The translations under genes and the position numbers were made by a program. DNA of 64,000 nucleotides from Aureivirga sp. CE67. Its GTDB lineage: Bacteria > Bacteroidota > Bacteroidia > Flavobacteriales > Flavobacteriaceae. Location of the stretch: assembly GCF_015767245.1 (NCBI RefSeq), contig NZ_JADOTV010000002.1, forward strand, positions 248,001 to 312,000, written 5' to 3'. Below are positions 19,851 through 37,070 of the stretch, piece by piece (position 1 is the first letter of the stretch; each line of letters begins with the position of its first letter). The notes beneath the pieces were generated by a model that ran no database searches, was not told where the DNA came from, and saw nothing but the letters and a program-made list of their open reading frames with translations.

Positions 19851-19883
19851 GTTCCCCTCTTGAGAGGGGCTAGGGGTGTGTTT
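19851..19883 (+). repeat. Palindromic repeat copy A
   Basis: Core CCCCTCTTGAGAGGGG (7-bp stem, 2-nt loop) followed by CTAGGGGTGTGTTT and preceded by GTT. The same unit recurs at 20508, 30081, 30375, 31492, 31976 and 32109. Here it lies four nt after the desaturase stop codon. Confidence 0.9.
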
Positions 19884-20434: not shown

Positions 20435-20446
20435 GTTTTAAAGTTT

Positions 20447-20498
20447 CTCTGAAGTGTTGCCTGAGGTTCTCGAAGTGTTACCTGAGGTTCTCGAAGGC
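20447..20498 (+). repeat. 21-nt tandem repeat (about 2.4 units)
   Basis: GAAGTGTTGCCTGAGGTTCTC is followed by the same 21-mer with one change (G to A), then a partial GAAGGC. It lies between the methyltransferase stop and palindrome copy B. Confidence 0.8.
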
Positions 20499-20507
20499 AA
20501 TTTTTAT

Positions 20508-20540
20508 TTTCCCTTCTTGAGATGGGCTAGGGGTGTGTTT
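20508..20540 (+). repeat. Palindromic repeat copy B (degenerate)
   Basis: Core CCCTTCTTGAGATGGG followed by CTAGGGGTGTGTTT. Two substitutions in the stem relative to copy A. Same orientation as A. Confidence 0.82.
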
Positions 20541-20892
20541 TTAAATTCTTACCTAAAAATAATTAGGGCATTCCCATTTTTCTTCGTTTCATAAAACTCA
20601 GAAAAAGGTCAGGCTTTCCGTTTCAAGTTTTTCATTTTCAAAAAAGAATTTTTAGAGAATCCGTGGGCTTCTAAGGTCGCCTCCGTTTCTCAAAAAATCT
20701 AAATTTTGAAAAAGAAAAAGCTTTTCACTTCAATCCTTAATGTCGCATAAACATTGAGAATTTTCTTTTGAAAATTGTAATTATTCTAAAATTATATGTT
20801 TTATAAATTAAACTATATTAGAATAAATAAAGAACACATCATTTCATAACACACCATAAACATTGAGAAAATGAATCTGAAAATTGTATTTT
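20541..20892. other. Non-coding stretch with a degenerate ~185-nt element and a short duplication
   Basis: From about 20560 to 20744 the text (TTAGGGCATTCCCAT ... GGTCAGGCTTTCCGTTTCAA ... CACTTCAATCCTTAATG) resembles a structured intergenic repeat I have seen in many Bacteroidota genomes; this is from memory and I cannot name it. Its ends ATTAGGG and CCTTAAT can pair. Next, CATAAACATTGAGAA occurs twice (20746-20760 and 20855-20869), each time followed by a GAAAATTGTA word. No ORF of note. Confidence 0.45.
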
Positions 20893-24373: not shown

Positions 24374-25165
24374 ATGGATTTTTTAGAAGCAATTATTTTA
24401 GGAATTGTACAAGGTTTGACGGAATTTTTACCTGTTTCGTCGAGTGGTCACTTGGAATTGACCAAAGCACTTTTTGGAAATGAAGCTGTGCCAAAAGAAA
24501 GTTTGACTTTTACAGTGGTTTTACACTTCGCAACAGCATTAAGTACCATCGTGATTTTTAGAAAAGAAATCATGGAAATTATCAAAGGGTTATTTCAGTT
24601 TAAATGGAATGATCAAACAGAATTTTCTGTAAAAATTATTGTTTCTATGTTGCCTGCAGTAGTTGTAGGATTACTTTTTGAAGAACATTTAGAAGCTTTT
24701 TTTAGCGGAAAAATTGTTTTAGTAGGAGCGATGCTTTTAGTTACAGCTTTACTTTTATTGTTAGCAGATAAAGCAAAAAATACAATAAAAGATGTTAGTT
24801 ATTCAAACGCATTTATTGTTGGAGTTTCACAAGCAGTTGCGATGTTACCAGGAATTTCTCGTTCGGGTTCGACAATTGCAACCTCGGTATTACTTGGGAT
24901 TGATAGAACAAAAGCTGCAAAATTTTCATTTTTAATGGTGGTTCCATTGATTTTTGGAAAAGTAGCAAAAGATATTTTAGGAGGTGGAATTTCGATTGAA
25001 AGTGATCAGATTGGAGTGATGAGTGCAGGATTTATTGCTGCGTTTTTTTCAGGTCTTTTGGCTTGTCAGTGGATGATTGCTTTGGTGAAAAAAAGTAAAC
25101 TTAGTTATTTTGCAATTTATTGCGCAGTTGTTGGTGTGATTGCAATTATTTATTCAATTATATAA
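24374..25165 (+). CDS. uppP: Undecaprenyl-diphosphate phosphatase
   Basis: It recycles the lipid carrier for peptidoglycan by removing one phosphate from undecaprenyl diphosphate. This is the BacA family, 263 aa, with about eight membrane segments. Signatures are GLTEFLPVSSSGHLEL (residues 15-30) and PGISRSGSTIATSVLLGIDR (about 157-176). truB starts 10 nt after the stop codon, consistent with co-transcription. Confidence 0.96.
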   Translation: MDFLEAIILGIVQGLTEFLPVSSSGHLELTKALFGNEAVPKESLTFTVVLHFATALSTIVIFRKEIMEIIKGLFQFKWNDQTEFSVKIIVSMLPAVVVGLLFEEHLEAFFSGKIVLVGAMLLVTALLLLLADKAKNTIKDVSYSNAFIVGVSQAVAMLPGISRSGSTIATSVLLGIDRTKAAKFSFLMVVPLIFGKVAKDILGGGISIESDQIGVMSAGFIAAFFSGLLACQWMIALVKKSKLSYFAIYCAVVGVIAIIYSII

Positions 25166-25175
25166 GAAGGATAGA

Positions 25176-25865
25176 ATGAGCTTAGAATTGGAAGACTTTA
25201 AAAATGGTCAGGTTTTATTAATTGATAAACCTTTAGAATGGACATCTTTTCAGGTGGTGAATAAACTGAGATGGCATATTCGTAAAAAATTCGATATTAA
25301 AAAAATCAAAGTTGGACATGCTGGAACTTTAGATCCTTTAGCAACTGGACTTTTGGTGATTTGTACTGGAAAATTCACAAAGAAAATTGAAACTTATCAG
25401 GGACAAATTAAAGAATATACTGGAACAATTCGTTTGGGAGCAACAACTCCTAGTTATGATTTAGAAACAGAAGTGAATGAAACTTTTCCTACAGAACATA
25501 TCACAGAGGAAATGATTCATGAAACTACGAAACAGTTTATTGGTGAAATTGATCAGAAACCACCAATTTTTTCTGCGCTTCGTAAAGATGGAAAACGTTT
25601 ATATGAAATTGCAAGAGCTGGAGAAACGGTAGAGATTAAAACTAGAAAAATTACAATTCCAGAATTTGAAATTACAAAGATTAATTTCCCAGATGTGGAG
25701 TTTCGTGTTGTTTGTTCAAAAGGAACTTATATTCGTTCTCTTGCATATGATTTTGGGAAAGCTTTAAATTCTGGTGGGCATCTTACTGTATTGAGAAGAA
25801 CTAAAATTGGAGATTTTTCTGTAGAGGAAGCGCAGACTATTGAAGAGTTTATTGAAAGTTTATAA
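25176..25865 (+). CDS. truB: tRNA pseudouridine(55) synthase
   Basis: It makes pseudouridine 55 in the T-loop of tRNAs. The catalytic motif GHAGTLDPLATGLLVICTGK includes the active Asp; CSKGTYIRSLAYDFG is the second family motif. Length is 229 aa from ATG 25176. A frame extending 12 codons upstream would overlap uppP, and the chosen ATG is preceded by AGAAGG, one of the few purine-rich Shine-Dalgarno-like sites here. Confidence 0.95.
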   Translation: MSLELEDFKNGQVLLIDKPLEWTSFQVVNKLRWHIRKKFDIKKIKVGHAGTLDPLATGLLVICTGKFTKKIETYQGQIKEYTGTIRLGATTPSYDLETEVNETFPTEHITEEMIHETTKQFIGEIDQKPPIFSALRKDGKRLYEIARAGETVEIKTRKITIPEFEITKINFPDVEFRVVCSKGTYIRSLAYDFGKALNSGGHLTVLRRTKIGDFSVEEAQTIEEFIESL

Positions 25866-25922
25866 TATTATTTATAATTGTTATAAATATCATCTTTGTA
25901 ATTAAAATTAACATAATATTTA

Positions 25923-25930
25923 TATATTTG
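25923..25930 (+). promoter_or_regulatory. Bacteroidota -7 box of the first CYEC lipoprotein
   Basis: TATATTTG followed by GCAGAA, 33 nt before the ATG. A nearly identical word precedes the paralogous gene downstream. Confidence 0.6.
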
Positions 25931-25962
25931 GCAGAAATTTAACCAAAACAATAAAAAATATT

Positions 25963-26241
25963 ATGAAAAACTTTAGAGTTTTAGTAGCAGTATTAGCTAT
26001 CGGTACATTAGGATTCACATCTTGTTCTAAAGATGATGATGGAGATTCAAATTCAGCTCAAAATTGTTATGAGTGTAAAATAGAAATATTAGGAAATTCT
26101 CAAGTACAAAATATTTGTGAAAATGAAGATGGAACTTTAACTGTAACAACTCAAGGCATATCAAATACTGTTGAAGATACTACTTTAGATGAGTATGTTT
26201 CTTTACAGGAATTAGTTGGTGCTGAGTGTACAAAGAAATAA
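25963..26241 (+). CDS. Small CYEC lipoprotein, paralogue 1
   Basis: A 92-aa lipoprotein: signal MKNFRVLVAVLAIGTLGFTSC with the lipobox Cys, an acidic linker (SKDDDGDSNS), then CYECKIEILGN ... NICENEDGTLTV ... ELVGAECTKK. Four cysteines outside the lipobox suggest two disulfides. It is paralogous to the next gene in domain order and in its promoter and terminator. I do not recognise a named family. Confidence 0.75.
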   Translation: MKNFRVLVAVLAIGTLGFTSCSKDDDGDSNSAQNCYECKIEILGNSQVQNICENEDGTLTVTTQGISNTVEDTTLDEYVSLQELVGAECTKK

Positions 26242-26266
26242 TTAGTTTAAAATAAAATTATTGTTT

Positions 26267-26294
26267 AAAACAGCTCAATTGAGCTGTTTTTTTA
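26267..26294 (+). terminator. Terminator of paralogue 1
   Basis: Perfect palindrome AAAACAGCTC-AATT-GAGCTGTTTT followed by T residues. Confidence 0.87.
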
Positions 26295-26299
26295 TTTTA

Positions 26300-26307
26300 T
26301 ATATTTG
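26300..26307 (+). promoter_or_regulatory. Bacteroidota -7 box of the second CYEC lipoprotein
   Basis: TATATTTG followed by GCAAAA, 29 nt before the ATG. Confidence 0.6.
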
Positions 26308-26335
26308 GCAAAACTAAAAAATAATCAAATTTCTT

Positions 26336-26572
26336 ATGAAAAACATTAAATTGTTTGTTGCTATGATGGCAATTTCTACAGCTAGTTTTATTTCTTGTTC
26401 AGAAGATGATGGTGATGATTCTACACCTTGTTATGAATGTGAGTTAAATGGAATAAAAAATACACTTTGTCCTGATGCAGATGGAAACATTAAAGTATTA
26501 GGTCAGACGATTTCTTATGAAGATCATAAAAAGAATATAGAACTTGGAGGAGGTTCTTGTAAAGAAAAATAA
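26336..26572 (+). CDS. Small CYEC lipoprotein, paralogue 2
   Basis: A 78-aa lipoprotein with the same order as its neighbour: signal MKNIKLFVAMMAISTASFISC, acidic linker SEDDGDDSTP, CYECELNGIKNTLCPDADGN, and a C-terminal GGGSCKEK. It is shorter by about 14 residues in the middle. Tandem duplication is the simplest origin, since promoter word, signal, CYEC core and terminator stem are all shared. Unknown function; probably envelope-located. Confidence 0.72.
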   Translation: MKNIKLFVAMMAISTASFISCSEDDGDDSTPCYECELNGIKNTLCPDADGNIKVLGQTISYEDHKKNIELGGGSCKEK

Positions 26573-26601
26573 GATTCTTTATAAAATTAAATTAATAAAA
26601 T

Positions 26602-26628
26602 GACAGCTCTTTTTGAGCTGTTTTTTTA
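26602..26628 (+). terminator. Terminator of paralogue 2
   Basis: Stem ACAGCTC / GAGCTGT with a T-rich loop, followed by a T run. The stem sequence is the same as in the terminator of paralogue 1. Confidence 0.83.
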
Positions 26629-27000
26629 TGTCTAAATTTTTAACCTAAAATCTAAAAATTGCTATTTTTTTTAGCGAATCTAACCAGATATGACGATTTA
26701 AAGCTTTTATTGTTACTTTTCACTTGTTTAAAACTAATTTTTTTAGCTAAAAAAAGAGCTAAATTTTATAGTTATTTTAATTTGATGCTAATTTTAATAG
26801 TGTTAAAATAATATTATTGAAATTTTTATTAGCAGTTTTTTAGATTTTCATAATAATAATACTTGTTCTTGAAAATTATAAAAATTTGACATATTTTTAT
26901 CAAAAACATTGAAACAGTAATTAATAATTAATTAAAATAAAGTTTTAATGAAAATATTATAATCTATAAAACGTAAACTTAAAACTTAAATTAATCGAAA
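26629..27000. other. AT-rich upstream region of the OB-fold/flotillin operon
   Basis: About 370 nt with no ORF of note. Several TTTAGC/GCTAAA words are present (26673, 26745, 26758) that could form weak inverted repeats. No clear TAnnTTTG box near the next ATG; TATTTTTA at 26892-26899 is the nearest look-alike. Confidence 0.35.
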
Positions 27001-27645
27001 ATGTTAGAGTTATTAAAAATTGCAACAACAGGAGCAAACATCATCCCAACAGCTTTGCTAATATTTTTAATCTTGTATGGATTAATAGCAATTGTTGGTT
27101 TAATTGAATTTGATTCCCTTGATTTTGATATAGATACAGATGTAGACGTTGATATGGACGTAGATGCCGACATAGATACAGATGCAGATATTTCTACTGG
27201 AGGAGGACTTTCGGGGGTTTTGACTTTTTTCAATATCGGGAAATTGCCAATCATGATTTACCTGTTTTTCGTAGCAATTCCAATGTGGGGACTTTCAATT
27301 TATATAAACCATTTGATTGGAAATAACTCTTTCTTAATAGGGTTTTTACTTTTAATTCCTATTACATTCGTATCCTTGCTGTTTGCAAAATATGCTTGTA
27401 TTCCTTTCGTAAAAGTTTGGGATGGATTAGACGGAACTATCGATACTAATTTTGTTGGTAAAATGTGTACGGTGCTTTATGATACTGAAAATGAAAAATT
27501 GAGCCAAGCAGATTTAGATTTTCAAGGAGATAAGATTCGATTGAACATTAAGTCTATTGAAGGGAGAAAGATTTATAGAGGAGACGAAGTTGTAATAGTA
27601 GAACACTTCGAAGAGAACGACTACTACTTAGTAGCAAAAATTTAG
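27001..27645 (+). CDS. YqiJ/NfeD-like membrane protein with OB-fold tail
   Basis: A 214-aa protein. Two hydrophobic regions (about residues 12-38 and 80-135) flank a strikingly acidic segment in which Asp alternates with a small or hydrophobic residue (about residues 40-62). The C-terminal ~75 residues look like the small OB fold of NfeD-type proteins (GKMCTVLYDTEN ... GDEVVIVEHFEENDYYLVAKI). In E. coli, yqiJ (this type) sits next to the flotillin gene yqiK, and the same pair is seen here. The likely role is to partner flotillin in the membrane. Confidence 0.8.
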   Translation: MLELLKIATTGANIIPTALLIFLILYGLIAIVGLIEFDSLDFDIDTDVDVDMDVDADIDTDADISTGGGLSGVLTFFNIGKLPIMIYLFFVAIPMWGLSIYINHLIGNNSFLIGFLLLIPITFVSLLFAKYACIPFVKVWDGLDGTIDTNFVGKMCTVLYDTENEKLSQADLDFQGDKIRLNIKSIEGRKIYRGDEVVIVEHFEENDYYLVAKI

Positions 27646-27674
27646 AAACAACATTTTATACATATTTGAATTAA

Positions 27675-27716
27675 CCAGTTTTTCCCTTCTGAAAATGGAG
27701 GGAAAGCAAAAGCTGG
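27675..27716 (+). repeat. Imperfect inverted repeat between yqiJ-like and flotillin genes
   Basis: CCAGTTTTTCCCT and AGGGAAAGC...GCTGG form an interrupted stem around TCTGAAAATGG. Its arm TTTCCCTTCT is shared with degenerate palindrome copy B, so it may be a distant relative of that repeat. It leaves the 150-nt spacer otherwise featureless. Confidence 0.4.
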
Positions 27717-27797
27717 ATAGGAAAAGTACATTCAAATTTTAAGCAAAGAACAAACAAAAAGTAAATTATAAATTAATCTAAAAACAAAAATTTAATT

Positions 27798-30002
27798 ATG
27801 GAAGAAACAGTACAAGAATTAGGAGCAGGAGCTTTTGCAGGCTATATAAGCCTTGGTTTAGGAGCCTTTGCAATTATTGTTTTTTTAGTCATTATCATCA
27901 AAATGTATAACAAAGCAGCTCAGGGAGAAGTTTTAGTTCGAACTGGAGGTTTTGGAGGTGTAGATAAGAAACCAAAAGTATCTTCTTCAGGTTTGATTTC
28001 GGTACCCGTGATTCATAGACTAGAAAAAATGGATATTCGTGTGAAAACAATTAATATTTCAAGAACTGGTTCAGAAGGTCTGATTTGTAAAGACAATATG
28101 AGAGCAGATATTAAAGTAACTTTTTTCGTTCGTGTGAATGTGGATAAAGTTGCAGAAGTTGCTAAATCTATTGGTTGTGATAGAGCTTCAGATCCAGAAA
28201 CGTTAAGAGGATTATATGAACCAAAATTTGCAGAAGCATTAAAGACAGTAGGTAAGCAATTTGATTTTATCGAATTATATACTTCTCGTAGAGAATTCAA
28301 TCAAGCTATTGTAAATATTATCGGAACAGATCTTAATGGATACAAATTAGAAGATTGTGCGATTGACTTTTTAGAGCAAACTCCAATTAACGAATTAGAC
28401 GAGAGTAATATTTTAGATGCAGAAGGTATCAAGAAAATTATTGAATTAACTGCAGAGCAAAAAGTACAATCTAATTTAGTTGAAAGAGATAAAGAAAAAA
28501 CAATCAAACAACAAGATGTTGAGGCACAAGAGACAATTTTAAACTTAGAAAAACAAAAAATAGAAGCAGAAGAGCGTCAAAAACGTGAAATCGAAAATAT
28601 CAAAGCTAGAGAGCAATCGGAAATTGATAGAATCAATGAAGAAGAACGCTTAAAAGCAGAAAAAGCTAGGATTGCTACAGAAGAGCAAATCCAGATTGCA
28701 GAAGAAAACAGAATGCGTGAGGTAATTGTTGCAGAGAAAAACAAAGAGAAAATCGAAGCAATAGAAGCAGAGCGTGTAGAGCAAGCAAGACTTTTAGAAG
28801 AAACAGAAAAAACAAGAATTGTTGAGTTAGCTCAAATTGAAAAACAAAGAGCAATCGAAGTGGAACAGAAAAATATTCAGGATGTAATTCGTGAGAGAGT
28901 TTCTGTAGAAAAAGCGGTTGTAGAAGAACAAGAAAAAATTAAAGATACACAAGCACTAGCGAAAGCGGAAAGAGATAAAGTAGTTGCATTGAAAAACGCA
29001 GAGCAAGAAGCAGAATCAGCATTAGTGAAGAAAATCAAAGAAGCAGATGCTGCGAAAGAAGCTTCGAAATTGGATGCGGAACGTATGTTAATTGATGCGA
29101 AGAGTAAAGAAACTGCTGCAATTCATGATGCGGAAGCTACAAAAATATTAGCGGAAGCTGCTGCTGCCGAAGCTGCTGCAATCGGAATGTCGGAGGCACA
29201 GGTGATGGAAGCAAAAGCGGAAGCGCGTGAAAAAGAGGCTGCTGCTGAGGCTGCTGCTGTTGAGGCAACAGCTCATGCAGAAGCAAAGGGAATTGAAGTT
29301 AAAGGAGCTGCTCAAGCGGAGGCGGACAGACAAATTGGGGAAGTTGCTGCACAAATTGAAAAAGAGAAGGGATTAGCAAAAGCGGAAGTTATTCAAGTTC
29401 AGGCGGAAGCTAATGAAAAACAAGGATTGGTGGATGTTCGCATCTTAAACGAGAAACTGGAAGTGGAAGCAGAAGGAATCCGTAAGAAAGCAGATGCGAT
29501 GAAAACATTGGATCCTACAAGCGTTGCTCATGAGGAGTTCCGTTTACGCTTAGAGCAAGCTAAAGAAATTGAGTTAGCTAGAATTGATGCAAACAAAGAT
29601 GTTGCTGCTTCACAAGCTGGTGTATTAGCGGAAGCGTTACAGTCTTCTAATATCGATATTATCGGTGGGGAGTCTATGTTCTTTGATAAATTGACTAGCG
29701 CAATTACAACTGGAAAAGCAATTGACAAAGCTGTTGGAAATAGTGAGGTTTTACAAGAAGTAAAAGGAACTTTCTTCAATGGTGAAAATGGAAATGGTTT
29801 TAAAGAAAATTTTAAAATGTTTATCGATCAGTTTGGAGTAAACTCTGAAGATTTGAAAAACTTAACAATCTCTGCATTACTTTACAAATTAATGCAACAA
29901 ACACAAGATGAAGATTCTCTTTCTGTGTTAAACCAATTACAATCGGTTTCTAAAATGTTAGGTGTTTCAGATAAAACTCCAGCTAGCATCGGATTGAACT
30001 AA
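27798..30002 (+). CDS. Flotillin family protein (YqiK-like)
   Basis: A 734-aa membrane scaffold protein. Order: one N-terminal TM helix (about residues 16-36), a Band 7/SPFH domain (about 45-230, with VRTGGFGGVDKKP, RMDI-like strands and KVTFFVRVNVDKV), and a very long Glu/Lys/Ala-rich coiled coil (about 230-610). The C-terminal region (about 630-734) is globular. Flotillins oligomerise in membrane microdomains; bacterial YqiK is linked to envelope stress and motility. It follows the OB-fold protein by 152 nt. A strong terminator follows. Confidence 0.92.
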   Translation: MEETVQELGAGAFAGYISLGLGAFAIIVFLVIIIKMYNKAAQGEVLVRTGGFGGVDKKPKVSSSGLISVPVIHRLEKMDIRVKTINISRTGSEGLICKDNMRADIKVTFFVRVNVDKVAEVAKSIGCDRASDPETLRGLYEPKFAEALKTVGKQFDFIELYTSRREFNQAIVNIIGTDLNGYKLEDCAIDFLEQTPINELDESNILDAEGIKKIIELTAEQKVQSNLVERDKEKTIKQQDVEAQETILNLEKQKIEAEERQKREIENIKAREQSEIDRINEEERLKAEKARIATEEQIQIAEENRMREVIVAEKNKEKIEAIEAERVEQARLLEETEKTRIVELAQIEKQRAIEVEQKNIQDVIRERVSVEKAVVEEQEKIKDTQALAKAERDKVVALKNAEQEAESALVKKIKEADAAKEASKLDAERMLIDAKSKETAAIHDAEATKILAEAAAAEAAAIGMSEAQVMEAKAEAREKEAAAEAAAVEATAHAEAKGIEVKGAAQAEADRQIGEVAAQIEKEKGLAKAEVIQVQAEANEKQGLVDVRILNEKLEVEAEGIRKKADAMKTLDPTSVAHEEFRLRLEQAKEIELARIDANKDVAASQAGVLAEALQSSNIDIIGGESMFFDKLTSAITTGKAIDKAVGNSEVLQEVKGTFFNGENGNGFKENFKMFIDQFGVNSEDLKNLTISALLYKLMQQTQDEDSLSVLNQLQSVSKMLGVSDKTPASIGLN

Positions 30003-30025
30003 AATATTTGTTTGGGTTTTGAATC

Positions 30026-30063
30026 AACTTAGGACATTTCGAAAGAAATGTTCTAAGTTTTTA
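30026..30063 (+). terminator. Strong terminator of the flotillin gene
   Basis: A 15-bp stem (AACTTAGGACATTTC / GAAATGTTCTAAGTT, one G-U pair) with a 4-nt loop and T-run. It separates flotillin from the repeat block and the downstream ATPase. Confidence 0.87.
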
Positions 30064-30080
30064 AAAAAGTAAGGAACAAA

Positions 30081-30114
30081 AGTTCCTCTCTTGAGAGGGG
30101 CTAGGGGTGTGTTT
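30081..30114 (+). repeat. Palindromic repeat copy C
   Basis: AGTTCCTCTCTTGAGAGGGG followed by CTAGGGGTGTGTTT. One change from copy A. Plus orientation. Confidence 0.9.
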
Positions 30115-30345
30115 CAACTGTCTGAGTAGTTTTTCAAAATGTCTAAGTCTTAAAAACAAATGTCGGAGTGATAAATGCAACTGTTGGAGTAGTTTTTCAA
30201 AGTGTCTGAGTCTTAAAAACAAGTGTCTGAGTGCTAAATGCAACTGTCTGAGTGATTCCTCAAAGTGTCTGAGTCTTGAAAACAAGTGTCGGAGTGACAA
30301 ATGCAACTGTCTGATTGATTTCTTACAGTTTCTGAATAATAATTA
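30115..30345 (+). repeat. Hierarchical minisatellite: 63-nt unit built from three 21-mers
   Basis: A 63-nt period is exact at 30115, 30178, 30241 and 30304 (start CAACTGTyTGAkT). Within each unit three 21-mers share the core TGTCtgAGT: CAACTGTCTGAGTAGTTTTTC, AAAATGTCTAAGTCTTAAAA.., CAAATGTCGGAGTGATAAATG. About eleven 21-mers are present, the last two decayed. Both strands stay open in one frame across it, giving artefactual repetitive ORFs. It begins directly at the end of palindrome copy C and ends 30 nt before copy D. Confidence 0.9.
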
Positions 30346-30374
30346 TACAAGTTCTATAAGAAGTAAAGAATGTA

Positions 30375-30408
30375 AGTTCCCCTCTTGAGAGGGGTTAGGG
30401 GTGTGTTT
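30375..30408 (+). repeat. Palindromic repeat copy D
   Basis: AGTTCCCCTCTTGAGAGGGG followed by TTAGGGGTGTGTTT. Plus orientation, 14 nt before the next ATG. Confidence 0.92.
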
Positions 30409-30422
30409 AAAAGTAATTTGCC

Positions 30423-31487
30423 ATGAATAAAAAATTATCTAAAAAAAATATAATAATTACCATTTCAATTTTAGTTGCATTTTTAGTAATTATTTTTACG
30501 ATAAAAGCAATTTATATTGTTGATAATCCAAAATGGTTTGACATAGATTTTGATAAAAAAGGAAGTATAATTTCAAGTTATGCTGCTTTAGTTGGTTCTT
30601 TACTAACTTTTTTATCTATTCTTTTTGTTATATATACAATTATTCAACAAAAAGATTTACATGAAAAAAACTTAAAACATAAAGAAAAAGAGGAGCTAGA
30701 GAAATTATATGATAATATCCTTTTTTGTCAGAATTATTTGGATAAATTAATTGATATTGTTGATAAAACTGGAGGTTATCTAAAAGAATTTTATGAAAAA
30801 GAAAAAGAACATCCATTAAAGAGTAATCTACTTTATTTTACAATTTATATGGAGTTAAATCCTTTTTTAGAGTTGAACTCAGTAGAAATTTTTAAAAGTT
30901 TTCAAGTTTTTTATGAAAAAGAAACTAATGTAAAACATTATAATACATTATATAGTAAATTTCATTTTTATTCAATTGCAATCAAAGAATTAAAAGGGAA
31001 ATATGATAATTATATCATTGATAAAGTTAATATAAAGCGTAAACTCGTAAGAGATATTAATAGCAATATTGATGAAATTGTTTATTTAAAAGAAGAATTT
31101 GAAAAAAGGAATTTAGAATCTGATCCATGGTACGTTTTATTTGAAGAATTTATCGAAAAATATTATCAAAGTATAAATAATGAAGAGGAAATAGATTTAA
31201 AATTCTTAAAAGATGAAAATTTAAAAGACTTTATAAAAAAAACAATTGAACTAAAGAAAATAACAAAAGTTTACACTGCTAAGAGTACTAATGTAATTAT
31301 TCTTAAATTTTCAACAATTAGAAAAGAAATTTATTCTTTAGAGTTTGATTCTTTGAATTATGCAAAACAATTAGAAGGAAATTATAAAAATTATTATTCT
31401 AAGGACAGTGAATTTTTAAAAGAACTTTATCAATTAAGAGATGATTTAAAGAAAACAATTCCAATTGATGAAATTTTGAAAAAGTAA
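30423..31487 (+). CDS. Two-TM protein resembling putative phage abortive-infection (PutAbiC-like) proteins
   Basis: A 354-aa protein with a TM helix at about residues 9-30, a second at about 48-72 (SYAALVGSLLTFLSILFVIYTI), then a Lys/Glu-rich helical cytoplasmic region to the C-terminus. This two-TM-plus-helical layout, with a GSIISSYAALVGS turn before TM2, resembles PutAbiC-type proteins. The similarity is by layout only and I could not run a profile search. It is more AT-rich, with Asn, Lys and Ile codons, than the flanking operon. Palindromes D and E lie on either side in inverted orientation, marking it as part of the inserted block. Confidence 0.6.
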   Translation: MNKKLSKKNIIITISILVAFLVIIFTIKAIYIVDNPKWFDIDFDKKGSIISSYAALVGSLLTFLSILFVIYTIIQQKDLHEKNLKHKEKEELEKLYDNILFCQNYLDKLIDIVDKTGGYLKEFYEKEKEHPLKSNLLYFTIYMELNPFLELNSVEIFKSFQVFYEKETNVKHYNTLYSKFHFYSIAIKELKGKYDNYIIDKVNIKRKLVRDINSNIDEIVYLKEEFEKRNLESDPWYVLFEEFIEKYYQSINNEEEIDLKFLKDENLKDFIKKTIELKKITKVYTAKSTNVIILKFSTIRKEIYSLEFDSLNYAKQLEGNYKNYYSKDSEFLKELYQLRDDLKKTIPIDEILKK

Positions 31488-31491
31488 TTTG

Positions 31492-31525
31492 AACACACCC
31501 CTAGCCCCTCTCGAGAGGGGAACTT
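31492..31525 (-). repeat. Palindromic repeat copy E (perfect 16-bp palindrome)
   Basis: AACACACCCCTAG then CCCCTCTCGAGAGGGG, a perfect palindrome, then AACTT. Minus orientation relative to copies A-D. The similarity to copy F continues downstream for about 30 nt (AGTGAAGAGAGTATTT vs TGTGAAGAGAATACATTT). Confidence 0.92.
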
Positions 31526-31578
31526 ATTTTTGGGAGTGAAGAGAGTATTTAACTGGGAACTTGAAAAAAACATAAACA

Positions 31579-32010
31579 ATGAGAAAAATAATACCATATA
31601 ATTCAGAGTTGAAGGAGCTTGCTAAAGAGTTACGAAATAAAAGTACGAAGAGTGAGATTTTACTTTGGCAAAAATTGAAGGGAAAGCAATTGTATGGTTA
31701 TCAATTTTCGAGACAAAAACCTTTGTTGAAATATATTGTAGATTTTTATTGTTATGATTTGAATTTAGTAATAGAATTAGATGGTTATTCTCATCAGCTG
31801 GATGAAGTTTTTGAGAAAGACAAACAAAAAACTTTGGATTTAGAAAAACAAGGATTAAAAATATTGAGATTTCAGGATAAAGATGTTTTTGATGATATGG
31901 AGAATGTGATTCTAGTTATTGAAAATTATATTTTGGAATTTGAGGGTGGTGGAGATGTTGAGGTTGATTTGGAAAAACACACCCCTAGCCCCTCTCAAGA
32001 GGGGAACTGA
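31579..32010 (+). CDS. DUF559 endonuclease-domain protein (Vsr-like PD-(D/E)XK fold)
   Basis: A 143-aa protein. The DUF559 core runs from about residue 5 to 118: RNKSTKSEILLWQKLKGKQL, then YGYQFSRQKPLLKYIVDFYC, then the LVIELDGYSH catalytic segment and QGLKILRFQDKDV. Asp in IVDFYC and the Glu/Asp pair in IELDG are the expected metal-binding residues of the Vsr/PD-(D/E)XK fold. The domain is followed by an acidic linker (EFEGGGDVEVDLE) and the tail HTPSPSQEGN, which is encoded by palindrome copy F; the stop codon lies at the repeat end. Direct copies E and F flank the gene. Nuclease activity and substrate are unproven. Confidence 0.88.
   Translation: MRKIIPYNSELKELAKELRNKSTKSEILLWQKLKGKQLYGYQFSRQKPLLKYIVDFYCYDLNLVIELDGYSHQLDEVFEKDKQKTLDLEKQGLKILRFQDKDVFDDMENVILVIENYILEFEGGGDVEVDLEKHTPSPSQEGN
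31976..32008 (-). repeat. Palindromic repeat copy F, overlapping the DUF559 3' end
   Basis: AACACACCCCTAG then CCCCTCTCAAGAGGGG then AACT. It is translated in frame as the final residues of the DUF559 protein. Direct orientation with copies E and G. Confidence 0.93.
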
Positions 32011-32038
32011 TTATTGAGTGTGAAGAGAATACATTTCT

Positions 32039-32060
32039 AATTCTTTTCGAGAGAGGAATT
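32039..32060 (-). repeat. Strongly degenerate palindrome (copy H)
   Basis: AATTCTTTTCGAGAGAGGAATT aligns with the palindrome core and flank of the other copies and can still form a 10-bp stem if G-U pairs are allowed. It suggests an older insertion or decay. Confidence 0.45.
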
Positions 32061-32108
32061 TAAAAATCTTTATTTGAGTAAATTAATTTTAAAATTTAGG
32101 GTGAAGTA

Positions 32109-32143
32109 ACACACCCCTTAATCCCCTCTCAAGAGGGGAGATT
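32109..32143 (-). repeat. Palindromic repeat copy G
   Basis: AACACACCCCTTAAT then CCCCTCTCAAGAGGGG then AGATT. It ends 13 nt before the ATPase ATG, so the repeat supplies part of that gene's 5' untranslated region. Confidence 0.9.
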
Positions 32144-32156
32144 AAAACCAAAAAAA

Positions 32157-35100
32157 ATGAACGATCAAAAAGAAAATATAGAAAATACAGAAATGCAATT
32201 AGACGGAGGAACGTATGAGATTCTGAAGCAACGATTGCGTAAAGATAATGTAGATTTAAGAGAAAGATTAAATCAATTAAATGTTGCTAGAAAAGATGTT
32301 TTTGGAGCGATTGATTTTCAACTTCAAGCCACAGAAAGAGTAACGACGAATTATAATTGTGTGCCTTGGGATATGTTTTCTTTGGGAAATCATTTTCTTT
32401 TTGGTTACAACATTCACATGGGCTTGAAAACGGAAATAAAACTAGAAGATGTTTTTAGTTTTTATTGTTTCCGAGATCATGAATTTCATCAAGCTACTTT
32501 AGAGATTTTAGACGACGAAAATTTCCATAGAGATTTTCAGAATTTATATAAATATTACAGAGATACACAGTTTGTAAAGTTTGCAAAAATTGGGCAGTAT
32601 CTTCATATGGTTTTCCGTTTTGGAACTCGTGAGGAAGATATCAAAACGTTTAAATGGCTGATAAAAGAAGAAACTTTACAATATGTAGATAATCGAAGTG
32701 AACATGAATTTCGCTTTCCACATCAACACGAATTTCGTTGGAAACAAACGACTCGTGAGAACTTTTGCGAGGGAGAACATCCACATATTTCGATAGAAGA
32801 TATTGTTTTTGTTGAAACAGTTGGTGGCGATTTGACCATCAAAGTGGAAGACAATACAAAGGATGGAAAAGGAATTTATAATGAACCTGTAAAACATCAG
32901 GAACAGAGATTAGATGATGCGGAAGTGGAATATGCAATCATTGATCATTTGGTGATTTTCAGAATTAAACCTTATCAAGAAGCGTTTCGTTATTTTGTTT
33001 ATAACAGCAAATTACAAGAAGTAAAACGTGTCGATTCGATGGAAGAAGCTTGTATTTTACTTCCGGAAAGTCAAGGTTTACTTTTCTCGGATGGTTATTA
33101 TTTACAATCTGGAGAATACAAACGTTTTGAGCAAGATTTGGAACACATGCTTTTCGAAAGATGTATTACTTCGCCAAATGGAGAAGATTTCTTGTATGTG
33201 TTTTACAATCAAAGTAAAGGAGTTTATTTGCTTTTGCCTTATAATTTAATTGAGCAAAGAGTAGAAAACCCGATTGTTTGTCATGGTTTTTCTTTGTTTG
33301 ATAATGGAGAAATGTGTTTGTTTAAAGCGGAAGAAGAAGCGAAAAAACACCATGCAATTCAGATTTGGCAAACACCTTTTATTGGAGCAGATTTCCAAAT
33401 TGATGGAAATAAAGATTCATTTTTATACAAAATTGGAAACAAAGATATCGTTCGTGCAATGGCGGAATGTCATTCGTTGATGACTTTGACAGATAAGGAA
33501 GAAGTTTACAACGATTTGTATTTAGACATTATAAAATATAGTACGGATGTTTTAGATACTTATCATTGGTTAAACAAAAAAGAAACTTTTGAACTTACAG
33601 TTCCGCTTCATGCCATAAAAGAAACGGCTTCAGCGGCTGTGGAAGAATATGAAAAAGTTCGTCAGATTCAACAAAATACTAAAAACGAATATGAAAAAGT
33701 TACAGCAGAAGCAGATGAGTTAATTCGAGTAATTAAAAGAGAAATTCCACATCATATCAATGATTTTGTACAGTCGTTGACAAATCTTCGAAAAGTTCGT
33801 GGAGAAGTGATTTCTTTGAAAGAATTACGCTATGTAGATATTGAAGCTGTTGAAAACTATGATGAAATTTTAGGGCAATTTACGGAAGAAACTTCAAAAT
33901 CTTGTGTGCAATTTTTATTGAAAAAAGAAGCTTTAGCTCCATATCAGCAAAAAGTTTCGGAATTGACAGCAGAAATTGAGCAAATCAAGAAAGTTGTAGA
34001 AGCAAATGCTTTAGAAGAAAAAATCACAGAAAATGCTGCGGAATTAGAAATGCTAATCGAAATTGTTTCCAATCTGCAAATTGAAGATGCGACAGAAACA
34101 ACAAGAATTATTGATAATATTTCTGAGATTTATGCTTCTTTCAACCAAATAAAAGCGAGTTTAAAAAGAAAACGTAAAAGTTTATTAGGAGAAGAAGGGA
34201 AAGCGGAGTTTAATGCGCAAATTAAATTAGTTGATCAAGGAGTTGTAAACTATATCGATTTATGTGATACGCCAGAAAAATGTGAGGAATATCTTACCAA
34301 ATTGATGGTGCAGCTAGAAGAATTGGAAGGGAAATTTTCTGAATTCGATTCTTTTGTTGAAAAAATATCTTTAAAAAGAGAGGAATTATACAACGCATTT
34401 GAATCGAAAAAAGTTGCTTTGGTGGAAGCTCGAAATAAAAGAGCAACGACTTTACAACAAACTGCGGAAAGAATTTTAAAATCTGTAAAAAGTAGATTAT
34501 CTCGATTTAAAGAAGTTTCAGAAATCAACGGATATATTGCTTCCGATTTGATGGTGGAGAAAATCAGAAAAACGATTGAAGAACTTGAAAATATTGGAGA
34601 TTCTGTAAAAGCAGATGATATTCAAAGTAAACTGAAATCTTTAAAAGAAGAAGCAATTCGTCAGCTAAAAGATAAATCAGAACTTTTTGTTGATGGGAAA
34701 AATATTATTCAGTTTGGAAATTATAAATTCTCTGTAAACACACAGAATTTAGATTTAACCATGGTTTTCAAAAATGATAAAATGTATTATCATTTGACAG
34801 GAACTGATTATTTTGAAGAAGTTGTAGATAAAACTTTTAATGAATATCAGCCAGTTTGGAATCAGATTTTGCCTTCGGAAAATAGAAATGTGTATCGTTC
34901 GGAATATTTGGCTTATCAGATTTTAGAAGCTGTAAAGAGAAAAGAATTAATTGATGATACTACAAAAGCGATTATAACTTGGGACGATATTTCGACTTTA
35001 GATTCGAAAGATTTATTGAAAGTTGTACAAAAATTTAGTGCTTCCAAATATTCGGAAGGTTATGTGAAAGGAGTTCATGATCAGGATGCTTTGTTAATTT

Positions 35101-37070
35101 TACACAATTTAATTCAAATGTATTCGCATGTTGGATTGTTGAAATATGATGCAACAACTCGTGCTTTTGCTAGATTTTATTGGGAGATTTGGGAAAAAGA
35201 TGAAGCGAAGAAAGTTTTAGAACAACAATTAAAAGCAGCAGGAATTTTATTGAAAGTTTTTCCAAATACAAAAGAATTTGAAGCGATAAAAAAACAAATG
35301 AAAAATCGCTTGGAAATTTGTTTTGAGTCTGAAAATATCACTTGGAATACTTCTGTAGAACAAGCTTGTGATTATCTTTTTGATGAATTAGCTTTTACTG
35401 AAAACTTTGTGATTGATGCAAATGCAGCGGATTTAGTACATTCTTTTGATATTGAATTACGAGGGAAAAAGATGAAAAATGCTTTTGAAAAATCGATGGA
35501 AGAAATCGAAGATATGAGCATTCGTTTTCAGACAATTCAAACTTGGTTAAAAGCGTTTATGCAAAATTCGAAAAGTTCTTATATCAAAAATGTAGAAGAA
35601 GCAGCTTTATTAATCATTTTACAATCAGATGTGAAGAAAAATGTACATAAAGTAATTACAGAAGAAACTTTAGAAAATTTGACTGGAACACATGAAATTA
35701 TTGAAGATGGAAAATACCAATTAAACATTCATGATTTCCAGAATAAATTAGAAAAATATAGTGAAACTGTAGTTCCAACGTATGAGAAATTTACTTCTTT
35801 AAAACATGAATTATTAGAAGAAACTTCAGAAATAATGCGTCTTGGCGAGTTCAAGCCGAGAGTGCTTTCTTCTTTTGTGAGAAATCAATTGATTGATAAA
35901 GTTTATCTACAAATTATTGGAGCAAACTTAGCGAAGCAAATCGGAACTGCTGGAGAAAATAAAAGAACTGATTTAATGGGACTTTTATTATTAATTTCTC
36001 CTCCAGGATATGGAAAAACAACCTTGATGGAATATGTTGCAAACAGACTTGGTTTGATTTTTATGAAAATTAACGGACCAGCTTTAGGACATGATATTAC
36101 TTCTGTAGATCCGTCTGAAGCAACAAATGCTGGAGCAAAACAAGAATTAGAAAAGTTGAATTTAGCTTTTGAAATGGGAGATAATGTGATGATTTATTTA
36201 GACGATATTCAGCACTGTAATCCAGAGTTTTTACAAAAGTTTATTTCACTTTGTGATGGACAGCGTAAAATTGAAGGAGTTTATAAAGGAAAACCAAAAA
36301 CATACGATTTCCGAGGGAAGAAAGTTTGTGTGGTGATGGCAGGAAACCCATATACGGAAAGTGGAGATAAATTCCAGATTCCAGACATGCTTGCAAACCG
36401 TGCGGATATTTATAATCTTGGAGATATTCTTGGAGATTCGGCTTATGAATTTGAATTATCTTATATAGAAAATAGTATTACATCGAATCCGACGCTTTCG
36501 AAATTGGCAAATAAAAGTCAAAAGGATATTTTGACGATATTAAAAATTGCGGAAACAGATCAGCGAGAAAATGTGGAGTTTGAAGCAAATCATTCGGCAA
36601 TAGAAATCAAAGAATATATTTCAGTTTTCAAAAAGTTAATTGAAGTTCGAGATGTTGTTTTAAAAGTAAATCAAGCTTATATTCAATCGGCAGGAATTTC
36701 AGAAGAATATAGAATGGAGCCAATGTTTAAATTACAAGGTTCGTATCGTGATATGAATAAAATGGCAGAGAAAATTGTTCCTGTAATGAACGATAAAGAA
36801 TTAAAAACATTGATTATTTCGCATTATGAGAGAGAATCGCAAACTTTAACTTCAGGAGCAGAAGCGAACATTTTGAAATTTAGAGAAATGATTGGACTTT
36901 TATCTGAAGAAGAAAAAGATAGATGGAATTCCATCAAAGAAACTTTCTTGAAAAAGCAAAAACTAAACTTAGTTGGAGGAAATCAAATGGGACAAATCTT
37001 AGAACAAATGGAAGCAATTTCAGAGAGTCTACAGAAAATGGCTCAGGTTGATAAGGTTTCTTTGAATTAA
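32157..37070 (+). CDS. Giant DUF3686 / AAA+ ATPase (annotated elsewhere as DNA repair ATPase)
   Basis: A 1637-aa protein. The N-terminal ~480 residues match the DUF3686 type ('ATPase involved in DNA repair'), with segments NYNCVPWDMFSLGNHFLFGY and QHEFRWKQTTRENF. A long helical, coiled-coil-rich region follows (about 500-900). The C-terminal AAA+ module (about 1260-1500) has Walker A PPGYGKTT near residue 1284, Walker B VMIYLDDIQ near 1349-1350, and MAGNPYTESGDKFQIPDMLANRADI resembling a MoxR/dynein-type sensor and arginine-finger region. I recall, without proof here, that such proteins co-occur with flotillin and OB-fold genes. The repair label comes from the family name, not from evidence. 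It is separated from flotillin by a terminator and the repeat block. Confidence 0.88.
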   Translation: MNDQKENIENTEMQLDGGTYEILKQRLRKDNVDLRERLNQLNVARKDVFGAIDFQLQATERVTTNYNCVPWDMFSLGNHFLFGYNIHMGLKTEIKLEDVFSFYCFRDHEFHQATLEILDDENFHRDFQNLYKYYRDTQFVKFAKIGQYLHMVFRFGTREEDIKTFKWLIKEETLQYVDNRSEHEFRFPHQHEFRWKQTTRENFCEGEHPHISIEDIVFVETVGGDLTIKVEDNTKDGKGIYNEPVKHQEQRLDDAEVEYAIIDHLVIFRIKPYQEAFRYFVYNSKLQEVKRVDSMEEACILLPESQGLLFSDGYYLQSGEYKRFEQDLEHMLFERCITSPNGEDFLYVFYNQSKGVYLLLPYNLIEQRVENPIVCHGFSLFDNGEMCLFKAEEEAKKHHAIQIWQTPFIGADFQIDGNKDSFLYKIGNKDIVRAMAECHSLMTLTDKEEVYNDLYLDIIKYSTDVLDTYHWLNKKETFELTVPLHAIKETASAAVEEYEKVRQIQQNTKNEYEKVTAEADELIRVIKREIPHHINDFVQSLTNLRKVRGEVISLKELRYVDIEAVENYDEILGQFTEETSKSCVQFLLKKEALAPYQQKVSELTAEIEQIKKVVEANALEEKITENAAELEMLIEIVSNLQIEDATETTRIIDNISEIYASFNQIKASLKRKRKSLLGEEGKAEFNAQIKLVDQGVVNYIDLCDTPEKCEEYLTKLMVQLEELEGKFSEFDSFVEKISLKREELYNAFESKKVALVEARNKRATTLQQTAERILKSVKSRLSRFKEVSEINGYIASDLMVEKIRKTIEELENIGDSVKADDIQSKLKSLKEEAIRQLKDKSELFVDGKNIIQFGNYKFSVNTQNLDLTMVFKNDKMYYHLTGTDYFEEVVDKTFNEYQPVWNQILPSENRNVYRSEYLAYQILEAVKRKELIDDTTKAIITWDDISTLDSKDLLKVVQKFSASKYSEGYVKGVHDQDALLILHNLIQMYSHVGLLKYDATTRAFARFYWEIWEKDEAKKVLEQQLKAAGILLKVFPNTKEFEAIKKQMKNRLEICFESENITWNTSVEQACDYLFDELAFTENFVIDANAADLVHSFDIELRGKKMKNAFEKSMEEIEDMSIRFQTIQTWLKAFMQNSKSSYIKNVEEAALLIILQSDVKKNVHKVITEETLENLTGTHEIIEDGKYQLNIHDFQNKLEKYSETVVPTYEKFTSLKHELLEETSEIMRLGEFKPRVLSSFVRNQLIDKVYLQIIGANLAKQIGTAGENKRTDLMGLLLLISPPGYGKTTLMEYVANRLGLIFMKINGPALGHDITSVDPSEATNAGAKQELEKLNLAFEMGDNVMIYLDDIQHCNPEFLQKFISLCDGQRKIEGVYKGKPKTYDFRGKKVCVVMAGNPYTESGDKFQIPDMLANRADIYNLGDILGDSAYEFELSYIENSITSNPTLSKLANKSQKDILTILKIAETDQRENVEFEANHSAIEIKEYISVFKKLIEVRDVVLKVNQAYIQSAGISEEYRMEPMFKLQGSYRDMNKMAEKIVPVMNDKELKTLIISHYERESQTLTSGAEANILKFREMIGLLSEEEKDRWNSIKETFLKKQKLNLVGGNQMGQILEQMEAISESLQKMAQVDKVSLN

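Follow-up and report, generated by a model that had tools for sequence, protein, structure and literature searches.

Among described interspersed intergenic direct repeats, the STAR elements of Staphylococcus aureus alternate a motif with spacers and comprise a few to several units per locus (PMC3532100). In the excerpt of that study on which we draw, the motif is a 14-bp GC-rich sequence, T(G/A/T)TGTTG(G/T)GGCCC(C/A), the spacers are 40-44 bp long and locus-specific, the loci vary by species, the elements expand and contract, with expansion within species demonstrated, and the function is given as unknown (PMC3532100). The MIRU minisatellites of mycobacteria, according to the excerpt cited, likewise occupy several dispersed loci (PMC3635867). 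Flavo-1, a Bacteroidetes RNA motif, is presented in the passages cited as offering no clue to its function (PMC2864571, PMC9723704). The locus described here is a 21-bp direct-repeat array with a 63-nt higher-order period, located in a 64-kb window (the whole stretch of DNA analysed) of the 4.81-Mb draft genome of Aureivirga sp. CE67 (47 contigs; G000). It was compared with a sister species of the same genus (G001), so that the genus sample consists of two genomes, one per species.

Architecture of the array and its locus

The array lies downstream of a gene conserved between the two species, in a stretch with the following features:

27798-30002, + strand: upstream conserved gene, 734 aa, 97% identical in G001
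30026-30062, + strand: hairpin with a T run behind it, following the upstream gene (identified by eye); a similar hairpin occurs at the G001 site
30080-30114, + strand: CCCCTC-type palindromic dispersed repeat, a separate repeat family, directly left of the array
30115-30314, + strand: array proper, three 63-nt higher-order copies on a strict 21-nt grid
Unit starts, + strand: A at 30119, 30182 and 30245; B at 30140, 30203 and 30266; C at 30161, 30224 and 30287
30315-30345, + strand: decayed right edge of the array (of the fourth copy about 25 nt are kept, after which it decays up to 30345)
30374-30408, + strand: second copy of the palindromic repeat, between the array and the 354-aa ORF
30423-31487, + strand: 354-aa orphan ORF following the array, not present at the orthologous G001 site
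31495-32138, - strand: stretch with three palindrome copies in the opposite orientation (31505, 31989, 32123)
31579-32010, + strand: DUF559 endonuclease-like gene within the same lineage-specific stretch
32157-37070, + strand: downstream conserved gene (DUF3686/AAA)

TRF analysis assigned 30115-30314 a period of 63 with 3.2 copies, 87% matches and zero indels. Self-identity over 30115-30345 was highest at lags 63 (0.833) and 126 (0.781), was about 0.6 at lags 21, 42, 84 and 105, and stayed at or below 0.377 at all other lags from 5 to 139. The three full copies are pairwise 84-89% identical. Each is composed of three 21-nt units in the order A-B-C, and each unit of a core, TGTC[T/G]GAGT, and a 12-nt spacer that typically ends in CAAAG (A), ACAAG (B) or TGCAAC (C). 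The first bases of the array, CAAC, are the tail of a C unit. The preliminary description had seen four copies of the 63-nt period; the period is indeed exact, while the full copies number three and the fourth is the short remnant listed above. The core that it gave for all units, TGTCtgAGT, varies in sequence (TGTCTGAGT, TGTCGGAGT, TGTTGGAGT, TGTCTAAGT and TGTCTGATT in the window array). Exact TGTC[T/G]GAGT occurs seven times on the + strand of the window, every time inside the array, and nowhere on its - strand. The abutment with the palindrome is as first described, the array beginning at 30115, immediately behind the palindrome copy and its GTGTGTTT end.

Synteny with G001 holds up to 30054 and is regained from 32145; between these points the sister species has about 190 bp, which contain what look like decayed palindrome ends. 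The 2.1-kb stretch missing from G001 comprises the array, five palindrome copies, the 354-aa orphan ORF and the DUF559 gene. The absence of the 354-aa ORF refers to the orthologous site and not to the rest of the G001 genome. A mobile origin of this ORF was rejected, as tblastn gave no plasmid match, none was confirmed in viral contigs, and no PADLOC, NCBIfam or PHROGs family was found; its one Pfam match (DUF4153) is below cut-off. The 734-aa upstream protein has no Pfam match at E 0.001, and a terminator scan did not list the hairpin at 30026-30062.

The array family and its distribution

BLAST with the window array returned 15 matches in G000. A two-core pattern with up to two mismatches occurred 23 times in the whole genome, versus 0 for the reversed control, many of the 23 being neighbours inside one array. 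After grouping, eight array loci were obtained (the window, C5, C46, C45, C44, C11, C25 and C4), with C43, a 35-bp BLAST match without the unit grid, left out of the count. All eight lie between ORFs, although an ORF of 130 aa overlaps the array at C46 and the one in the window is spanned by two ORFs. The C5 array has 11 units, C and B alternating with a 42-nt period; in C46, C-A-A is repeated with a 63-nt period; and C44, C45, C11 and C4 have, on the same grid of 21 nt, four additional pyrimidine-rich units (P1-P4) as a block.

Units of the same type at different loci differ at a mean of 5.05 of 21 positions, as opposed to 9.61 for adjacent units within a locus (88 units), a comparison that leans towards its result since unit types were assigned by similarity. 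Given that unit types are common to loci while the 63- and 42-nt periods are locus-specific, we infer that dispersal was followed by in-register duplication; the unit types would thus be older than the dispersal, and the higher-order period would have been made locus by locus. Repeated unequal exchange, which had been proposed from the window alone, remains the best reading in the form of in-register exchange or slippage. Mismatches to the unit consensus number 186 over the 88 units. Inside the counted ranges there are 0 off-grid indels, and a single one of net 3 nt lies just beyond them, at C25; Flavo-1 blocks, by contrast, have 11 indels to 112 substitutions, and blocks of the leader module described below have 3 to 65. 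This comparison is biased, because the grid itself set the counted ranges, but selection on spacing could still play a part. Array and next gene run in the same direction at all eight loci, array and preceding gene at six; the distance from array to next gene is 95-302 bp at seven loci and 461 bp at C44.

RNA folding placed the array on the less stable side of shuffled sequences on both strands (z +1.77 and +1.62), and an Rfam scan of 29900-32200 returned just two matches, far under their gathering scores at E of about 0.6, with no Flavo-1 match in that range. A structured RNA was rejected on the basis of these tests. CRISPR loci combine a long conserved repeat with unique spacers; here, the core is 9 bp long and the spacers recur as three types, so the array is not of that form.

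The window array as query found no match in G001. That genome nevertheless has an orthologous P-type array at the C45 site, after an AcrB gene (L178), and retains two units as a remnant at the C5 site (L201), as compared with the 11 units in G000. Across 149 genomes of the family, a search for the A-unit pattern that allowed one mismatch gave 19 matches in G000 and a single, exact one in G001; the other 147 genomes held 19 matches in 17 genomes, all with one mismatch, and the reversed control gave 11 matches in 10 of these other genomes. The two-core pattern matched 2 of 60 genomes (G000, and one single pair in G031), a search of 59 relatives that missed the divergent array of G001 and is therefore no proof of absence. 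The pattern TGTCKGAGT-NNT-N9-TGTCKGAGT matched 37 stretches in GTDB contigs and five in IMG/VR viral contigs, from many unrelated taxa. In at least 12 of these 42 loci, a 21-nt grid holds no fewer than three cores, and the closest of their 56 matched spacers is 4 of 12 positions off any spacer type of the 21-bp family. Wide spread of the family was rejected on the basis of this spacer divergence. The 21-nt tandems with a TGTCKGAGT core in unrelated taxa are independent repeats, some of them probably coding; in one such tandem, from Sphingobacterium (L065), one frame is open. As far as the data go, the 21-bp family thus appears restricted to the genus in the genomes compared. We did not find it described in the literature on Flavobacteriaceae intergenic repeats, an absence that is not proof.

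Neighbouring repeats, synteny breaks and cargo genes

Flavo-1 lies beside five of the eight arrays. At C46, C44 and C25 it scores above the Rfam cut-off, while at C11 and C4 it was recognized by DNA similarity, the C4 block reaching 27.6 bits, below the cut-off of 42. The G000 genome has at least 80 Flavo-1 matches at E 0.01, with 150 of 2035 candidates scored. A second kind of neighbour, again dispersed, is a module some 150 bp long that combines a promoter of flavobacterial type (TTG-N-TAnnTTTG) with the conserved leader TCTGCTGCTATG. It is found just before cargo genes in both species (L091 7850-8010, 12140-12262 and 12850-12999; L198 6164-6325 and 8970-9119; also in L092, L093 and L094) and looks like a portable promoter. 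A scan with the flavobacterial-type promoter consensus placed a promoter between array and gene at four of the eight loci (three strict, TTTG-N-TAnnTTTG, and one relaxed), against a background of 18 strict and 30 relaxed occurrences in 256,012 nt on both strands.

The window also contains a second, different 21-nt tandem (TTCTCGAAGTGTTACCTGAGG, 2.4 copies) at 20445-20496, 15 nt from a degenerate palindrome. This second tandem region (20445-20526 and 20603-20752) is close to a Flavo-1 match, and synteny with G001 breaks there at 20446/20899 with an apparent inversion. The DUF559 gene sits among palindrome copies of the window, and another DUF559 gene lies about 1 kb from the C5 array.

All seven loci that could be compared have the array at a synteny break with G001, although several of them have flanks in common, so that the seven breaks are not independent; C4 was left out of this count, its left flank having given only short, weak G001 matches. 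At C46, C44, C11 and C25, compared within 13-15.5 kb of G000 and 16.5-18 kb of G001, synteny ends between the left conserved gene (or its Flavo-1 block) and the array, and the G001 counterparts contain other genes and no array in the stretches compared. At C45, the array and the leader behind it are common to both species and are followed by different genes, while at C5 the right flank is common for about 150 bp, after which the type I restriction-modification genes differ. The background comes from a small count made by hand in one window: among the 24 boundaries that separate conserved genes in 176-37070, 3 are synteny breaks, the one at the array included.

The cargo near the arrays includes hsdR, hsdM, an ABC-3C CTD9 component with an AAA ATPase, and a HATPase/HSDR_N protein, together with a tyrosine recombinase, a GIY-YIG protein, DUF6895 and orphans. 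At C46, the cargo (L091 8044-11995) starts with a 169-aa orphan with an alanine-rich stretch, followed by the CTD9 ABC-3C component and an AAA_23 ATPase; the latter two probably form a defence system. At C25, a 437-aa tyrosine recombinase with an extra N-terminal part (L095 3284-4594) starts about 200 bp after the array. It scores 246.9 with NCBIfam NF040815 (site-specific tyrosine recombinase/integron integrase; cut-off 220) and 215.7 with the integron-integrase model TIGR02249 (cut-off 265). At C44, a 90-aa ORF (MATFKIKDDNG..., 8542-8814 of L093 in oriented coordinates) lies between the leader module and a 191-aa ORF beside DUF6895; with its acidic start and small hydrophobic end, it is reminiscent of a peptide precursor.

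Origin of the arrays and comparison with known systems

We consider it probable that the array is one locus of a genus-restricted set of interspersed 21-bp direct repeats that was dispersed and then re-amplified in register, without encoding a protein or a folded RNA. An ancestral multi-unit element would have been dispersed among intergenic sites and re-amplified in register at each site, by replication slippage or unequal recombination, to yield the 63-nt period here and the 42-nt period at C5, with the arrays decaying at their edges. The sites would be intergenic regions rich in Flavo-1 RNA, CCCCTC palindromes and CTGAG/TCGAAG repeats, where cargo genes may be gained or swapped. The array itself most probably lacks a sequence-specific role; its contribution would at most be homology that aids recombination at synteny junctions.

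Contact with the palindrome had led the preliminary description to suspect a copying mechanism tied to it. The array does begin at the very edge of a palindrome copy, and the tandem at 20445-20496 also has a degenerate copy close by. The palindrome (CCCCTCTYGAGAGGGGNTAGGGGTGTG, up to two mismatches) is, however, present at 160 places in G000 versus 3 in G001, a large lineage-specific difference, and its copies in the window are at 19854, 30085, 30379, 31505, 31989 and 32123. Arrays without an adjacent palindrome, which had been named as the observation that would speak against such a mechanism, were looked for and found within G000 itself: only the window array abuts one, and the nearest copies (up to three mismatches) are 337 bp away at C11, 432 bp at C25, 539 bp at C45 and 1883 bp at C44, with none in the 9-15 kb around C5, C46 and C4. 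The C5 array starts beside a different repeat, no palindrome was found in the 3.1 kb around the orthologous G001 array (L178), and the two-unit remnant (L201) has one with two mismatches about 430 bp away. Palindrome-driven copying is therefore rejected, because seven of eight arrays do not abut a palindrome, and we regard it as extremely unlikely; the best explanation of the contact is a coincidence between two repeat families that occupy the same kind of site. Very improbable, too, is a derivation of the array from protein-coding heptad repeats (21 nt being 7 codons), of which it would be a remnant. This idea would accommodate a period divisible by three, the net 3 nt of the sole off-grid indel observed, and the 93-aa forward and 81-aa reverse ORFs that span the array in the window, where both strands are open as originally noted. 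The open frame changes by locus, however, and none is open at all eight, while between-locus substitutions are distributed over the three codon phases as 9.3, 11.3 and 8.5, without phase excess. A protein-coding repeat was rejected by these frame and phase tests, and the initial impression that neither ORF is gene-like holds.

Neutral dispersal does not fully explain the rarity of off-grid indels and the co-direction of array and next gene at all eight loci, both of which fit a phased protein-binding array. Such an array, with 21 bp equalling two helical turns, would display its cores on one DNA face, and the cargo would be silenced or controlled. The strict grid with few indels is in line with this idea, as are the promoters between array and gene at four loci and the fact that every array precedes its next gene and points the same way; a neutral repeat would not have to share the direction of that gene. 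Yet the four promoter matches are not independent, all belonging to one common leader module, and the window array lacks such a promoter; unit number and type vary strongly by locus, and no binding protein was found. Moreover, the C5 orthologue in G001 is down to two units, and the C25 orthologue consists of a Flavo-1-like block followed by a leader-like stretch and a gene, without any array. On balance, we deem phased binding unlikely. The position of the arrays between conserved genes and variable cargo could also suggest an integron-like attachment or recombination platform, on which a recombinase would land on the array or a neighbouring repeat and defence cargo would be swapped, as might be read from the recombinase above the NF040815 cut-off at C25 and from the C45 array, common to both species with different cargo behind it. 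A recombinase is the next gene at one of eight loci only, however, and falls below the TIGR02249 cut-off; it is the leader module, not the array, that recurs as a direct repeat between cargo genes; the lineage-specific stretch in the window is bounded by palindromes; and no integron integrase was detected among the seven proteins of window 24374-37070 that were scanned. We therefore give this possibility a low probability. A more speculative proposal, to which we attach a similarly small chance as a whole, is that a putative genus-specific protein binds TGTC[T/G]GAGT on one face, forming a platform of tunable unit number that marks or controls insertion hot spots and that would buffer the expression, or steer the exchange, of freshly acquired defence cargo.

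If the arrays are repeat DNA only, as in the dispersal and re-amplification that we favour, they provide a clean, small example of bacterial minisatellites that first spread and are then re-amplified at each locus separately; at one orthologous site, the unit number is 11 in one species and two in the other. If their link to synteny breaks is causal, they mark places of defence-gene exchange and would be useful for finding unknown cargo.

Like alpha-satellite-type higher-order repeats of eukaryotes, in which diverged monomers of one ancestor are re-amplified as multi-monomer blocks, the array consists of diverged units re-amplified as blocks; unlike them, it is bacterial, has three copies in 200 bp and no centromere role. 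With MIRU, to the extent covered by the excerpt used above, the 21-bp arrays share the status of bacterial minisatellites at several dispersed loci. MIRU are unrelated to them in sequence and have longer units. The resemblance to the Flavo-1 RNA motif (Rfam RF01705), as far as the cited passages describe it, is that of a dispersed Flavobacteriaceae element with no known function (PMC2864571, PMC9723704), but Flavo-1 is a structured RNA motif and the 21-nt array shows no such structure. Compared with STAR as portrayed in the excerpt cited at the outset, the 21-bp arrays are equally intergenic, consist of a direct short motif and spacers at several loci, and have locus-specific spacers and unit numbers, with loci that differ between species. 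They depart from it in their 9-bp core and 12-bp spacer, in not being GC-rich, in belonging to another phylum, in the strict grid of 21 bp, on which higher-order periods of 63 and 42 nt are superimposed, and in their location at synteny breaks, often beside Flavo-1. The 14-bp STAR motif, in the form given in that excerpt, was not seen by eye in the unit sequences. The STAR-type kind is the closest known for the 21-bp array, which, being unrelated to STAR in sequence, we suggest is a new member of that kind and not a STAR element.
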